Origin: Candidatus Epulonipiscium sp.
GTDB taxonomy: Bacteria; Bacillota; Clostridia; Lachnospirales; Defluviitaleaceae
Length of the DNA: 34,827 nucleotides
Direction: 5' to 3'
Assembly (NCBI GenBank): GCA_012519205.1
Contig: JAAYQR010000018.1
Location: forward strand, 1-34,827
Of this stretch, positions 19,605 through 34,827 are shown in pieces (positions within the stretch are counted from its first letter, which is position 1; each line of letters begins with the position of its first letter). The notes beneath the pieces were generated by a model. The model worked only from the letters and a program-made list of their open reading frames with translations. It was not told the DNA's origin and made no database searches. The translations under genes were made by a program, and so were the position numbers.

Positions 19605-19639
19605 AAGAATAGCCGTAATTTAGAATTACGGCTATTCTT
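19605..19639. terminator. Terminator between the PBP gene and spoVAE
   Basis: A perfect 16-bp stem (AAGAATAGCCGTAATT against its complement) with a three-base loop, followed by T4 on the plus strand. The spoVAE stop codon lies inside its right arm, so it may stop both convergent units. Confidence 0.8.
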
Positions 19640-19988
19640 TTGCTTTGGAATTAAATATAAGGGCGGCTATAAATGCAAATAAAACAGCTGCTGTAATCCC
19701 TGCTGAGGTTGCTTTTAATCCCCCCGTAAAGGCACCCTTAAGCCCTATTTTATCTACTTCCTCGATTGCCCCCTTTGCTAGGGAATATCCGAACCCTGGA
19801 AGAGGGACTGTAGCCCCTGCTCCCCCAAATTTAACTAGGGGTTCATATAATCCCATTCCATGAAGTACTGCCCCAAGAACAACAAATAAAACTAATATCC
19901 TGCCAGACATTAATTTGGTTTTATCTATCAGTATTTGTCCAATTACACATATGATTCCACCGATAATAAAAGCTTTTACATAATCCAT
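19632..19988 (-). CDS. spoVAE: Stage V sporulation protein AE (SpoVAEb type)
   Basis: A 118-residue membrane protein with about four hydrophobic segments. It includes the motifs AFIIGGIICVIGQILID and the GAGATVPLPGFGYSLAKGA loop that are shared with SpoVAC, its paralogue. It belongs to the SpoVA channel in the inner spore membrane that takes up dipicolinic acid during sporulation and releases it at germination. The GGAGGAAGG ribosome site overlaps the stop codon of spoVAD, so the two are translationally close. It is the last gene of the operon. Confidence 0.93.
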   Translation of the reverse strand: MDYVKAFIIGGIICVIGQILIDKTKLMSGRILVLFVVLGAVLHGMGLYEPLVKFGGAGATVPLPGFGYSLAKGAIEEVDKIGLKGAFTGGLKATSAGITAAVLFAFIAALIFNSKAKE

Positions 19989-19998
19989 GTCCTTCCTC

Positions 19999-21015
19999 CT
20001 ACGCCCATTTATTCTCTATAGCAACTGCATGTGCAATACTTGGAATCGATTCTCCCTGCTGTGTGCTTCCAGGACTCATCAAGGCACCTGTAGGTATAAA
20101 TAGGATTCGACTCCACTTGTTATTTTGCATTTCTTTATATAGGTATCCTGCAAAGGTTACAGCAGAACAACCGCAACCACTACCACCGGCATGGGTATCC
20201 TGAGTGGCAGCATCAAATATTTCTACCCCACAATCAGAGAATATACTTTCAATGTCATAACCTGACTTTTTAACTAATTCTAGAGCTAATTCTTTACCTA
20301 CCGAACCTAAATCACCAGTAATTATTAAATCATAATCCTTAGGTGTACGGCCGGTATCTTGGAAATGATTAATGATTGTGTCCGCTGCCGCTGGAGCCAT
20401 TGCAGCCCCCATATTCATTGGGTCCTTTATGCCTAAATCTATTATCTTGCCTGGTGTTATATATGTTATATAGGGCCCCGGACCATTTTTCCCAAGTATA
20501 ACGGCTCCACTCCCAGTTACTGTCCATGAAGCAGTAAGCGGTCTTTGGGTTCCTAATTCCAAGGGAAATCTAAACTGTTTTTCTGAGCCACAAAAATGGC
20601 TGGACGCCTCTGCAACTACATAATTGGCAAATCCTCCATCTATAGTCATAGCACCTAAAGCCATACTTTCGCCCATAGTAGAACATGCCCCAAATAAACC
20701 AAAAAAGGGTATATCAAAACTCCTTAATCCAAATGTGCTGGCTGTCAATTGATTGAGTAAATCTCCTGCAAAAATGTATTGGATATCTTCTGGAGTTAGA
20801 TTGGCCTTTTGGATAACTCTTTCTATAGTTTTTTGGACTAATTTACTTTCTGCCTTTTCCCAGCTATCTTCCCCCCATAAGGGGTCTTGTAGCACCACAT
20901 CAAAGTAGGTACCTAAAGGCCCTTTCCCTTCCTTAGAACCCACTGTAGATGCAGCCGAGATGATGCTAGGGGGCAAATCAAATTTAATGCTTTGTTTTCC
21001 TATATGTTTTGCCAT
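19999..21015 (-). CDS. spoVAD: Stage V sporulation protein AD
   Basis: A soluble, thiolase-fold protein that binds dipicolinic acid in the SpoVA complex. The core segments GLFGACSTMGESMALGAM, TGDLGSVGKELALEL and THAGGSGCGCSAVTF are family hallmarks. The frame opens with an ATG at 21027, but that ATG overlaps the ribosome site; the second ATG at 21015 follows GGAGG by five bases and gives 338 residues, the family length. It lies between spoVAC and spoVAE in the operon. Confidence 0.96.
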   Translation of the reverse strand: MAKHIGKQSIKFDLPPSIISAASTVGSKEGKGPLGTYFDVVLQDPLWGEDSWEKAESKLVQKTIERVIQKANLTPEDIQYIFAGDLLNQLTASTFGLRSFDIPFFGLFGACSTMGESMALGAMTIDGGFANYVVAEASSHFCGSEKQFRFPLELGTQRPLTASWTVTGSGAVILGKNGPGPYITYITPGKIIDLGIKDPMNMGAAMAPAAADTIINHFQDTGRTPKDYDLIITGDLGSVGKELALELVKKSGYDIESIFSDCGVEIFDAATQDTHAGGSGCGCSAVTFAGYLYKEMQNNKWSRILFIPTGALMSPGSTQQGESIPSIAHAVAIENKWA

Positions 21016-21064
21016 TGTATCCTCCATTCTGCCTATTCTAGCTTAAATTTAGACTGAATCTTAT

Positions 21065-21511
21065 CTATTTCATAAAATAATGAATAATCCCTACTACTAC
21101 GGATGCTGTTAGACCATATACAATAACAGGCCCTGCTATGGTAAACATCCTAGAACCAACTCCAAATACATAACCTTCTTTTTTATATTCGATAGCAGGG
21201 GAAACCATGGAATTTGCAAAACCTGTAATCGGAACAATAGAGCCTGCCCCAGCGTATTTTCCTAGGGAACTGTATATGTTAAGGCCTGTTAGGAGAATCC
21301 CTAGAAATACTAGAACAATGGTTGTCAGCATACTGGCCTCATCTTTATTATATCCAAAACTTTTAATGATATTATTTATGAGCTGTCCTATTGTACATAT
21401 GACTCCTCCCACCCAAAAGGCCCTTGCACAATCCCTTAAGAGATTTGATTTTGGCGATATCTTCTCTACCATCTGGGCATATTCTTTTTTCATATTTTGA
21501 ATTTGATCCAT
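21065..21511 (-). CDS. spoVAC: Stage V sporulation protein AC
   Basis: A 148-residue integral membrane protein. After a soluble N-terminus (MDQIQNMKKEYAQMVEKISP) come about four transmembrane segments, with the AFWVGGVICTIGQL motif and the GAGSIVPITGFANSMVSPA loop common to SpoVAC and SpoVAEb. In Bacillus SpoVAC behaves as a mechanosensitive channel for dipicolinate release. The ribosome site is GAGGT, 8 bases before the ATG. It is co-directional with spoVAB (19-base gap) and spoVAD. Confidence 0.95.
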   Translation of the reverse strand: MDQIQNMKKEYAQMVEKISPKSNLLRDCARAFWVGGVICTIGQLINNIIKSFGYNKDEASMLTTIVLVFLGILLTGLNIYSSLGKYAGAGSIVPITGFANSMVSPAIEYKKEGYVFGVGSRMFTIAGPVIVYGLTASVVVGIIHYFMK

Positions 21512-21530
21512 AACATTACCTCGCTTTCAA

Positions 21531-21962
21531 CTATTTATATTGAATAAATCCTGGTAAAATCCAATATATTATTGCACCAACCATTTTTCCTATAGCAATA
21601 CTGATAATAAGAAATTCGATTCCCCTTTTTAAACTTAGTCTTCTTGTTACAACAGGTATAACGTTTAATATTTCTGCTAAGGATACTGCCAGGCAACCTG
21701 TAAAAATCCCAAAGCAAAAGCCAATGATAGCTGCCCCTATCTTGCCAATGGGCGCCGAAAAGTCCCAAATCATTGTAAGACAACCTAAAATCCCTCCCGC
21801 AATGATTACAGTTTCATACAAAATCAAGTACTTTTCTGTTTTTGTCTTTTCCATAAGCCGTGGGATAACGCCTATGATTGCAATAAAGGCAAAAATTCCT
21901 CCAGCAATAACCACTCCGCCACTAAATCCTATTAAAACAGAGACTATTTTCCCAAAAAACAT
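21531..21962 (-). CDS. spoVAB: Stage V sporulation protein AB
   Basis: A 143-residue membrane protein with about four hydrophobic segments and the family pattern GGVVIAGGIFAFIAIIGVIPRLMEKTKT near the N-terminus and VIPVVTRRLSLKRGI later. Its exact role in dipicolinate uptake is unknown. The ATG overlaps the stop codon of spoVAA (TAATG), so the two are translationally coupled. Confidence 0.9.
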   Translation of the reverse strand: MFFGKIVSVLIGFSGGVVIAGGIFAFIAIIGVIPRLMEKTKTEKYLILYETVIIAGGILGCLTMIWDFSAPIGKIGAAIIGFCFGIFTGCLAVSLAEILNVIPVVTRRLSLKRGIEFLIISIAIGKMVGAIIYWILPGFIQYK

Positions 21963-22578
21963 TAATTGTTTCCTCTTTTCTGTTCTGTAATTTTACTAAT
22001 GATATAATTTTCGACATTATCTTCATAAGAAACCATTTCTACTTCTATGGGAGTGGGGTCCTCAGTTATTTTTTTAGGTGAAAAATGATTGAAAAAGACA
22101 ATAATACCTACAGCAATACCTAAGGAATAAGGTATCTGAATCCAATAGGGCTTATCTGTTTTAATCCCAGTGAAAATTTCGTAAAGTTGTTTTAATACAT
22201 CGGGAAGGGCAGAATCAGTATGAAATGTCATAATCGCAATGCCGCCTCCTGCAAATAATATCAAACATGTGCTAATTACTTTTAAGAATGTAAAAATCCT
22301 ATTTTCTTCCTTTTTATTAGGATAGTATTCTACGATACTATCCATTTCACCTACATTTGATACATCCATATCTGGATGTTTATCATTAATAGCTTTTATA
22401 ATATCTATAATGGAAATAATATATTTCTTTTTATTAATATCTTGTATATCCATCAATTTAATTTCTTCTATGGATGTTTTCATATACTCTGGGGCTACAA
22501 CCTCGGCAATGTCCCTAATAATTATTTGGTTTTTTTGTAAACAGATGTCTTTTTATACGGCTTTATATATATTGTCAC
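21962..22578 (-). CDS. spoVAA: Stage V sporulation protein AA, apparent frameshift near the N-terminus
   Basis: The 173 residues from an ATG at 22483 look like SpoVAA without its beginning: a soluble part, two transmembrane segments (about 64-83 and 113-130) and LYEIFTGIKTDKPYWIQIPY, as in the family. That ATG lacks a ribosome site, and the frame continues upstream as DICLQKNQIIIRDIAEVVAP until a TAA. In another frame a GTG at 22578, after GGGGGT, encodes MTIYIKPYKK, just the expected N-terminus. Adding one A to the A5 run at 22550-22554 joins the two into 205 residues, the known size. So the gene is either disrupted, mis-sequenced or rescued by slippage. It is coupled to the small ORF before it (3-base gap) and to spoVAB after it. 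Confidence 0.82.
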
Positions 22579-22831: not shown

Positions 22832-22864
22832 CAAAAAAAGAAATGCTCTTAACCGAACATTTCT
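22832..22864 (-). terminator. Terminator of the spoIIA operon (after sigF)
   Basis: On the minus strand AGAAATGTTC pairs with GAGCATTTCT (one G-U pair) around a GGTTAA loop, followed by T7. The left arm and loop contain the last sigF codons and its stop. It separates spoIIA from spoVA. Confidence 0.8.
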
Positions 22865-23565
22865 CGCATTGATTTTAATATTTTCTTTTCTATTCTTGAA
22901 ACTTGAACCTGAGAAATTCCTATAACATCTGCAATCTCTGTTTGTGTTTTATCCTTAAAGTATCTCATTGTTATTATTTGTTTTTCCTTTGGTCCTAGAC
23001 TCTCTATAATCTGGGATAAGGCAATTTTGTCAATCATGTTAGCCTCAGGGTTAGCATCTAAATATATTTTGTCCACCAAAGTAATAGGATTTCCTTCCCC
23101 CTCGTGAATAACAGATTGCAATGATTCCACATCACTATTAGCCTCTAAAGCCATCACTAATTCTTCTACATCTATCTCCATGGCAGCAGCCAACTCTTGG
23201 ATACTTGGCTCCTTTTCCATTTCCTTTGTTAAGTTTTCTTTTAAAATTCTAGCCTTAAGCCCTATTTCCTTTAAAGAACGGCTTACTTTTATCATTCCGT
23301 CATCTCTCATAAATCTTTTGATTTCACCCATTATCATAGGAACCGCATAGGTTGAAAATCTAACATTATAATCTAAATCAAATTTATCGATGCTCTTTAT
23401 AAGCCCAATGCTTCCTATCTGAAATAAATCTTCAATATCATAGCCCCTATTTCTAAAACGCTTCACAATACTCCATACTAATCCTACGTTTTCTTCTACG
23501 ATTTTGTCCCTGGCAGCTGTATCCCCTGATTGCGCTTTTTTAATCAATTCCAATGTTTTATCCAT
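22849..23565 (-). CDS. sigF: RNA polymerase sporulation sigma factor SigF
   Basis: The first forespore-specific sigma factor. It has 238 residues: region 2 with ARDKIVEENVGLVWSIVKRF and DLFQIGSIGLIKSIDKFD, region 3 around MIKVSRSLKEIGLKAR, and region 4 with a helix-turn-helix at TQTEIADVIGISQVQVSRIE. It is held inactive by SpoIIAB and released by unphosphorylated SpoIIAA. It lies 17 bases after spoIIAB with an AGAGGTGG ribosome site, in the universal order spoIIAA-spoIIAB-sigF. Sigma-G is similar in sequence, but the operon context assigns it to sigF. Confidence 0.97.
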   Translation of the reverse strand: MDKTLELIKKAQSGDTAARDKIVEENVGLVWSIVKRFRNRGYDIEDLFQIGSIGLIKSIDKFDLDYNVRFSTYAVPMIMGEIKRFMRDDGMIKVSRSLKEIGLKARILKENLTKEMEKEPSIQELAAAMEIDVEELVMALEANSDVESLQSVIHEGEGNPITLVDKIYLDANPEANMIDKIALSQIIESLGPKEKQIITMRYFKDKTQTEIADVIGISQVQVSRIEKKILKSMREMFG

Positions 23566-23582: not shown

Positions 23583-24014
23583 CTATTCCAAACTCTTGAG
23601 TTTTTTTCGCATCCTAATAGCCGTTCCTTTTTCTCTTACGGATTCAATTTCTATCTCATCCATAAAGGTTTCCATTACGGTAAAGCCCATACCTGATCGC
23701 TCTAATTCGGGTTTTGAGGTGTAGAGGGGTTCTCGTGCCTTAGAAATATCCTCAATTCCTTTACCCTTATCTTCAATAACTATCTCAACCGTATTATTGA
23801 AGAAACTACAACTTACATTTATCATTCCCTCACTGTTCTCATATCCATGAATTACAGCATTTGTAACAGCTTCAGATACAGCAGTCTTGATATCGGATAT
23901 TTCTTCAAGGGTAGGGTCCAGCTGAGAGATAAAGGCTGCTACAGCTACCCGTGCAAACCCCTCATTTTGTGATTTGCTTATAAATGATATCTTCATTGTA
24001 TTTTGATATTCCAT
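23583..24014 (-). CDS. spoIIAB: Anti-sigma F factor and serine kinase SpoIIAB
   Basis: A GHKL-fold kinase of 143 residues that binds sigma-F and phosphorylates SpoIIAA. The N box is SEAVTNAVIHGYEN (about 47-60), the G1 box is VIEDKGKGIEDI, and the G2 region is LERSGMGFTVMETFMD. All expected ATP-binding residues are visible and the length is right. It starts 11 bases after the corrected spoIIAA stop with a GGGGGAG ribosome site and is followed by sigF. The gene looks intact, unlike spoIIAA. Confidence 0.97.
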   Translation of the reverse strand: MEYQNTMKISFISKSQNEGFARVAVAAFISQLDPTLEEISDIKTAVSEAVTNAVIHGYENSEGMINVSCSFFNNTVEIVIEDKGKGIEDISKAREPLYTSKPELERSGMGFTVMETFMDEIEIESVREKGTAIRMRKKLKSLE

Positions 24015-24025
24015 AACAACTCCCC

Positions 24026-24366
24026 CTATTGCAAACTTAATATTGCTTCATCTAAGCTATGATATTGATTAATTATTTTATATAAGCCTGAAAGCTGTAA
24101 AACCCTATCTACCTGTGGTGCAACATTATATACCCCTACTTGTCCCCCCCCCGCTCTTTTACATTTTTGTATCTCCCCATTATCACACCTATTCCTGAAC
24201 TATCCATAAATTGAATACCCGAAAAATCAAATACAATGTTTTTTACATTATGTTTAATGAATTCCCTATCCAACTTATCTCTTATGGTCTCGGAAGTATG
24301 ATGGTCAACTTCTCCTGATATTTTAGCTATAAGACTTCCTTTTTTTATTGAATATGTTATGGTCAT
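24026..24366 (-). pseudogene. spoIIAA: Anti-sigma F factor antagonist SpoIIAA, frameshifted in a G9 tract
   Basis: A STAS-domain protein that, when dephosphorylated by SpoIIE, frees sigma-F from SpoIIAB. The start is the ATG at 24366 with AAAGGGG upstream, although the frame is open further. The phosphorylation motif DSSG is at 55-58. The frame runs through MGRYKNVKERGG into a run of nine G (24144-24152) and stops two codons later, after 76 residues. In another frame the missing third is intact right up to the SpoIIAB ribosome site (GQVGVYNVAPQVDRVL through DEAILSLQ). Seven G would restore the usual ERGGQVGV, and ten G would also restore the frame, giving 112-113 residues. As read, the product lacks its last helices and should not activate sigma-F. 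It is classed as a pseudogene only because of this frameshift; error or phase variation are open. Confidence 0.88.
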
Positions 24367-33789: not shown

Positions 33790-34209
33790 GGAGGAGGTGA
33801 ATCAGATACCAACAATGGTGGGATTTCAATCCACGCCCCTGTATGAGGGGCGACTCTGTTATTGTATTTTTTGCATTTTCAATTATATTTCAATCCACGC
33901 CCCTGTATGAGGGGCGACTAAGATTAAGGGGGTTTTATTATTATGACTAAATTTCAATCCACGCCCCTGTATGAGGGGCGACGTCAATTTTATTTTGGTA
34001 TGATTTTGTTAAGCAATTTCAATCCACGCCCCTGTATGAGGGGCGACTTTAAATACATGACAAAATCAACTGATGAAGATATTTCAATCCACGCCCCTGT
34101 ATGAGGGGCGACCTTGATACCTTTGCATATAGCAATGTAATATTATTTCAATCCACGCCCCTGTATGAGGGGCGACTCATCAAGCATGGAACCAAAATCA
34201 GGGAGCCAA

Positions 34210-34240
34210 ATTTCAATCCACGCCCCTGTATGAGGGCGAC
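34210..34240 (-). repeat. CRISPR repeat with a one-base deletion
   Basis: This copy reads TGAGGGCGAC where the other full repeats have TGAGGGGCGAC, so it is 31 bases with G3 in place of G4. It shortens one arm of the palindromic core. Confidence 0.9.
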
Positions 34241-34827
34241 TCGTCCTACGACCTTGACATTGTGCCGCGAAAAATTTCAATCCACGCCCCTGTATGAGGG
34301 GCGACAAAAGTAATATCTAGCCTGCCCAGTCATACAATAATTTCAATCCACGCCCCTGTATGAGGGGCGACAAAAACGGGTTTCTTCTTATCTTGATACT
34401 ATAATTTCAATCCACGCCCCTGTATGAGGGGCGACTAATTATGGATATATATTCTTAACCTTAACTGTATTTCAATCCACGCCCCTGTATGAGGGGCGAC
34501 CCTTAAAACTTTGATTTGGTTCTGTTGTAAGCGATTTCAATCCACGCCCCTGTATGAGGGGCGACAAAGAGTAGCACGCAGAAAAACCCTACCCCAAATT
34601 TCAATCCACGCCCCTGTATGAGGGGCGACCCGTCTAAAAAAACTAAAATATGTAAATGGGGATATTTCAATCCACGCCCCTGTATGAGGGGCGACCAAGT
34701 ATGGTTGCACATATTTTGAGAGCAAAGGAATTTCAATCCACGCCCCTGTATGAGGGGCGACTTATCAATCGTCACGTTAAAATTAGCAAAACAAATTTCA
34801 ATCCACGCCCCTGTATGAGGGGCGACA

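Follow-up and report, generated by a model that had tools for sequence, protein, structure and literature searches.

A spoIIAA reading frame lost at a run of nine G in a Candidatus Epulonipiscium genome with damaged mutS and mutL

The window analysed in this work is the whole stretch of 34,827 nucleotides, which is contig 18 of a Candidatus Epulonipiscium sp. genome of 2.13 Mb in 28 contigs that is 98.75% complete. The complement strand of the window carries the spoIIA operon (spoIIAA, spoIIAB, and sigF) followed by the spoVA genes. The genes downstream of the spoIIAA piece, spoIIAB for anti-sigma F (23583-24014) and sigF for the sporulation sigma factor (22849-23565), are intact, and both of their proteins match their profiles above the cut-offs. 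The genes spoVAB, spoVAC, and spoVAD and the gene next to them are also intact (19632-21962). The first three are matched by Pfam, and the fourth is taken to be a spoVA gene from its position. The nearest relatives that were compared are related at family level, and none of them is of the same genus. The closest SpoIIAA homolog loci are in genomes named Defluviitalea phaphyphila and in Candidatus Epulonipiscium bins.

The start frame of spoIIAA (24136-24366, complement strand) encodes 76 amino acids with a STAS domain that includes the DSSG motif, and it is truncated after ERGG. The frame is lost at a run of nine G on the coding strand, read as nine C on the forward strand (24144-24152). The start frame, which begins at 24366, ends in VKERGGDK with its stop at 24136-24138. 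The original prediction that the protein reads normally up to ERGG agrees with this frame, but the stop is not inside the run as had been stated; it is 5 nt past it. The remainder of the protein lies in another frame (24026-24148, complement strand) and was matched by tblastn with residues 73-112 of the relatives' SpoIIAA. It ends in GQVGVYNVAPQVDRVLQLSGLYKIINQYHSLDEAILSLQ followed by a TAG at 24026-24028 that abuts a G-rich ribosome site, after which spoIIAB starts at 24014, so the predicted open continuation up to that site is present. The first piece is matched by STAS and by TIGR02886 (spore_II_AA); its 84.8 bits on the latter fall short of the cut-off of 114.75, which is set for the whole protein, and the piece is truncated. 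No backup copy of SpoIIAA was seen in the genome, where the sole other match at E <= 0.001 is on contig 21 and has 30% identity.

The two halves of SpoIIAA are about equally similar to those of three relatives, with 59-60 of 74 residues alike in the first half and 27-28 of 38 in the second. The remainder has thus not decayed, which means that the break is young, or is not real, or is bypassed. The presence of the run alone is within chance. Long G tracts had been described as rare in this DNA, whereas a shuffled window is expected to hold 0.43 runs of nine G, and such a run occurred in 21 of 100 shuffles. The run had also been called unusual at this site of the gene. The homologs are G-rich there too, at a Gly-Gly turn; a run of at least five G is found in 19 of 80 homologs and a run of seven in one of the 80. 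It is the loss of frame in spoIIAA that needs explanation.

SpoIIAA is whole and in frame at all 25 related-genome loci that were read (L010-L034); the search also gave four more distant STAS loci, which this reading left out. The comparison of the tract between relatives, which had been suggested as a check, revealed no long tract in the family, as the site of the nine G is a run of just 2-4 G in seven family relatives. The frame also continues through the C-terminal part at 80 further SpoIIAA homolog loci. In all of these 80 homologs, two conserved motifs are separated by a segment of 28 residues (75 by script and five by eye). The tract of the window is two bases over the length that gives a 28-residue segment, that is, more than one single-base step. 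The arithmetic by which seven or ten G would restore the whole protein is correct, but the two lengths do not have equal standing, since the extra residue added by the longer one is found in none of the 80 homologs. The frame of spoIIAA is broken while its homologs are intact, as in a pseudogene.

A second sporulation gene of the window, spoVAA, has also lost its frame. Its GTG start is at 22578, about 1.6 kb beyond spoIIAA, and is followed by 18 codons that resemble the start of the relatives' gene and then by a stop (22522-22578, complement strand). The frame is lost at a run of seven A (22530-22536, complement strand). The rest of the protein is in another frame (21962-22552, complement strand). 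The part of it that starts with ATG is matched by Pfam SporV_AA, the rest has no NCBIfam match, and by tblastn it matches residues 10-203 of SpoVAA of relative G001 at 64%. The evidence for the break is an N-terminal piece of just 16 residues (27 bits), as small as edge hits in the relatives that were set aside; the break was accepted because the relatives' gene starts with this piece. The other sporulation genes are whole where they were checked, namely two genes with a Spo0A C-terminal domain, spoIIIAA, spoIIE, sigF, sigE, sigG, and sigK. No frameshift was flagged by the census against relative G003 in the 32 kb from spoIIIA to past spo0A.

Two pairs of contig ends in the assembly overlap by exactly 127 bases, and the same 127-base overlap is common to three further pairs. 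These overlaps point to a de Bruijn assembly with k = 127. Such an assembly is usual for Illumina short reads and is also used for Ion Torrent reads. A metagenome bin was suggested by the missing 16S gene, and this suggestion was dropped: contig 6 reads N where it was inspected, and several contigs stop at what is presumably the start of a 16S gene. A CRISPR-like array is located near the end of the window's contig (33750-34827), where 16 repeat copies were found, the first of them degenerate, and the repeat includes ATTTCAATCCACGCCCC. The copy at 34202-34244 has a G run that is one G shorter, a change of the slip type. Contig 28 opens with the same repeat.

Both mismatch repair genes, mutS and mutL, are located outside the window and both are damaged; the disruption of either one is one mark of a mutator lineage. 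The mutS gene is in two parts, with the N-terminal part at the 3' end of contig 7 (L228) and the C-terminal part at the 3' end of contig 10 (L227/L238). The gene order miaB-mutS-mutL-miaA is the same as in relative G003. Both contigs exit mutS after a common TAA and then have a 124-nt tail, and these 3 + 124 nt equal the 127 of the assembler. Imperfect inverted repeats stand at the start of the tails (local score 14, matched in none of 2000 shuffles). The flanks of mutS, when they are joined through one TAA, are open in frame. Of the 392 genomes searched, five others have a match to the tail of contig 7, and the match is at a contig end in three of them. Two copies of this tail in genome G005 have unrelated flanks, which is like multi-copy elements. 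With its inverted repeats and 3-bp duplication, the interruption of mutS looks like the insertion of a mobile element. The interior of this putative element is not in the assembly. No second copy of it was found in the assembly either. This is unexpected for a repeat at which contigs break, but it would be explained if other members of a mixed sample carry the copies. The mutL gene is in two frames that diverge at a run of seven A between the N-terminal and C-terminal domains. The C-terminal parts of both genes remain open frames. Both genes are full-length in four of the five other genomes searched for them, and the fifth genome is 69% complete.

The census of frameshifts used the proteins of relatives G003 and G001 as queries and covered 166 gene loci in 759 kb of the genome. 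Internal frameshifts were accepted in three of these loci, namely spoIIAA, spoVAA, and mutL. The reverse census accepted none in 164 loci of G003 and none in 46 loci of G001, where the numbers are small and the hits were judged by eye. Several hits were set aside. One of them (L133:3335-5973) aligned an 882-aa reference with two pieces that have 38 extra nt between them, and two others (L238:8583-8678 and 19994-20116 of the window) were upstream edge hits. Flagged edge hits of 9-21 residues, three in G003 and one in G001, were also set aside by eye.

The genome was also scanned for changes of frame with a hidden Markov model, which reported 64 events in a first sample and 52 in a second sample of about 280 kb. 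Most of these events were taken for ordinary gene junctions. The first sample was judged by eye (37 places, one of them added by hand) and the second by a start/stop rule. The scan missed the break in spoVAA, so it is a weak counter. It confirmed no break in the second sample, which was not picked for tracts and was read by a scan blind to breaks of the spoVAA type. The load of slips is thus not heavy everywhere. Four events were left over as candidates (L133:18257, L139:880, L139:10491, and L041:4649). A fifth (L143:17461) was set aside, as we take it to be the start of a ribosomal protein gene.

The scan and the census together give 11 frame breaks in nine genes. By our own reading, eight of the 11 breaks are at runs of at least six bases, and such runs make up 2.3% of bases; this share is biased upward, since two of the nine broken genes (the hydrolase and the ATPase) were found through stretches chosen around runs of eight G. 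The other three breaks are away from long runs. A heavy-metal P-type ATPase gene (L048:8155-10247) has three frame breaks, each at a homopolymer run, and a gene for a LysM and cell-wall hydrolase (Hydrolase_2, L041:5002-6004) is broken at a run of eight G. A gene for a transglutaminase-domain protein (L050:2822-5040) is broken at a run of six A. A gene like those of pyruvate/2-oxoacid:ferredoxin oxidoreductases (L044:13132-15386) has a one-base break with no long run. A gene for a surface-type protein with an Ig-like domain in its first part (L044:18146-20000) and a gene like those of type I restriction R subunits (L050:16678-17638) are each in two frames.

All G or C runs of at least eight bases in the whole genome were inspected, and the 17 places found are 13 runs. 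Six of these runs are in frame within genes, which are hisF (nine G), uvrA, nrdJ, dnaB, gltA, and the gene of a TIG-domain protein. The script called the run in dnaB a change of frame, as the gene starts just before it; the run was counted as in frame on a full-length match to DnaB. Three runs break the frame, in spoIIAA, the hydrolase gene, and the P-type ATPase gene. The remaining four belong to neither group; one is at the end of an ACPS gene, one is near the putative start of an HD-domain gene, and two are without a clear gene. The reference-matched coding DNA has 157 runs of at least seven bases, and breaks were accepted at three of them.

We consider the run of nine G to be probably real, a frameshift allele of spoIIAA that arose recently in a lineage without MutSL mismatch repair. 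The competing explanation with the most weight is an error of sequencing or consensus at the homopolymer, where the true tract would have the length of the family and spoIIAA would be whole. This is possible, though clearly the less likely of the two. Most of the breaks are at G and A runs, and breaks at homopolymers are also what errors of 454 or Ion Torrent reads look like. The one-base break without a long run in the ferredoxin oxidoreductase gene, which is perhaps needed by an anaerobe, could be read as an error as well, and it fits decay equally. Unreliable tract lengths should hit growth genes too. However, six of the nine G or C runs of at least eight bases that are clearly in genes keep the frame, and five of the six are in hisF, uvrA, nrdJ, dnaB, and gltA. 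The accepted breaks at the 157 runs of at least seven bases are confined to mutL and two sporulation genes, the run in spoIIAA departs from the family length by two bases and not by one, and the interruption of mutS is not of the homopolymer kind. A plain pseudogene formed by loss of sporulation in a repair-proficient lineage, with the findings on mutS and mutL separate or artefactual, is unlikely. It agrees with the two broken sporulation genes and with the ready loss of sporulation within spore-forming genera that is described in the available part of one study (PMC3533761), but it leaves the damage to mutS and mutL and the slip-type nature of most breaks unexplained.

The original prediction had also offered a phase-variation switch, that is, a dedicated contingency tract that toggles sporulation in subpopulations. 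A mononucleotide tract inside the gene that decides the activity of SigF, with an intact remainder in another frame, is what such a switch would look like. The comparison with relatives does not favour it. The long tract is absent from the seven family relatives, so there is no sign of selection that keeps it; its length differs from that of the family by two bases, and the longer length that would keep the frame adds a residue that none of the 80 homologs has. Loss of repair already accounts for the slippage, and we regard a dedicated switch as very improbable. Even less credence is given to programmed recoding, where ribosomal or transcriptional slippage on the nine G would supply some full-length SpoIIAA. 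A run of nine is a length where slippage is plausible. Transcriptional frameshifting that rescues an interrupted gene has been published, as far as the available part of the source describes it (PMC4256274). However, no stable structure was found past the tract (z = +0.48, with an equally good fold in 136 of 200 shuffles), and the slippery site is not conserved in the family. Slippage on the run could still occur at a low level.

The frame of spoIIAA was thus most likely lost because the lineage lost mismatch repair, which let runs of one letter slip. The lesions stand in the assembly, and from them we infer how the events followed one another, that the lineage is a mutator, and that sporulation is defective. 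The insertion of an element would have knocked out mutS, after which replication slippage at G and A runs would have stayed uncorrected. Genes that may be dispensable for growth in situ (those for sporulation, the cell-wall hydrolase, the metal ATPase, and mutL) would then gather slips, whereas growth genes with equally long runs would be held in frame by selection. In B. subtilis, the release of SigF from SpoIIAB needs SpoIIAA. In a cell whose SpoIIAA is without its last third, SigF should stay bound by SpoIIAB and sporulation should not complete. Loss of sporulation had been one of the readings first proposed for the locus, and it is supported by the second lesion in spoVAA and is consistent with the damage to mutS and mutL. 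The best reading is that spoIIAA carries one slip among several, in a lineage that is deficient in repair and is losing sporulation.

The absence of repair would let the tract slip in both directions, and the defect may be leaky and reversible without any selection for it as a switch. The available part of a study on conditional hypermutators of B. subtilis reports that rates of insertion and deletion climb with homopolymer length (PMC11890065), and therefore the spoIIAA tract may slip back too. It is conceivable, though rather doubtful, that ordinary coding runs act as accidental switches throughout a genome that has lost MutSL, and that cells flip their competence for sporulation through spoIIAA and spoVAA. 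Such flipping, in the same doubtful case, would be phase variation by general mutability and not by evolved contingency tracts. A literature search that covered part of its matches turned up no account of spoIIAA being switched by a homopolymer.

The slip in spoIIAA is itself ordinary in kind, and the repair defect outside the window is more telling. If the preferred reading of a slip after loss of MutSL is true, this genome belongs to a spore former caught in losing sporulation because it lost DNA repair, while the other checked parts of the programme are whole, and the takeover by a mutator would be linked with the decay of sporulation. Both of these are known mostly from laboratory cultures. 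A lone broken sporulation gene should be judged alongside the mutS and mutL of the same genome.

A lesion in an otherwise largely complete set of sporulation genes is likewise described for non-sporogenous Firmicutes and for B. subtilis in serial culture, in the available parts of two studies (PMC3533761; PMC11914059). Unlike the loss of sporulation through a single gene, two sporulation lesions and damage to both mutS and mutL are found here in the same genome. The genome shares damaged mutS and mutL and indels at homopolymers with MutSL-deficient hypermutators, and its own mutator state is deduced from one assembly. The tract shares with phase variation by mononucleotide tracts that its length sets the frame, but the spoIIAA tract is not conserved. 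A review of phase variation separates, in its available part, genome-wide mutators from localized hypermutation (PMC11868660), and by this division the spoIIAA case would fall with the genome-wide mutators and not with localized hypermutation.
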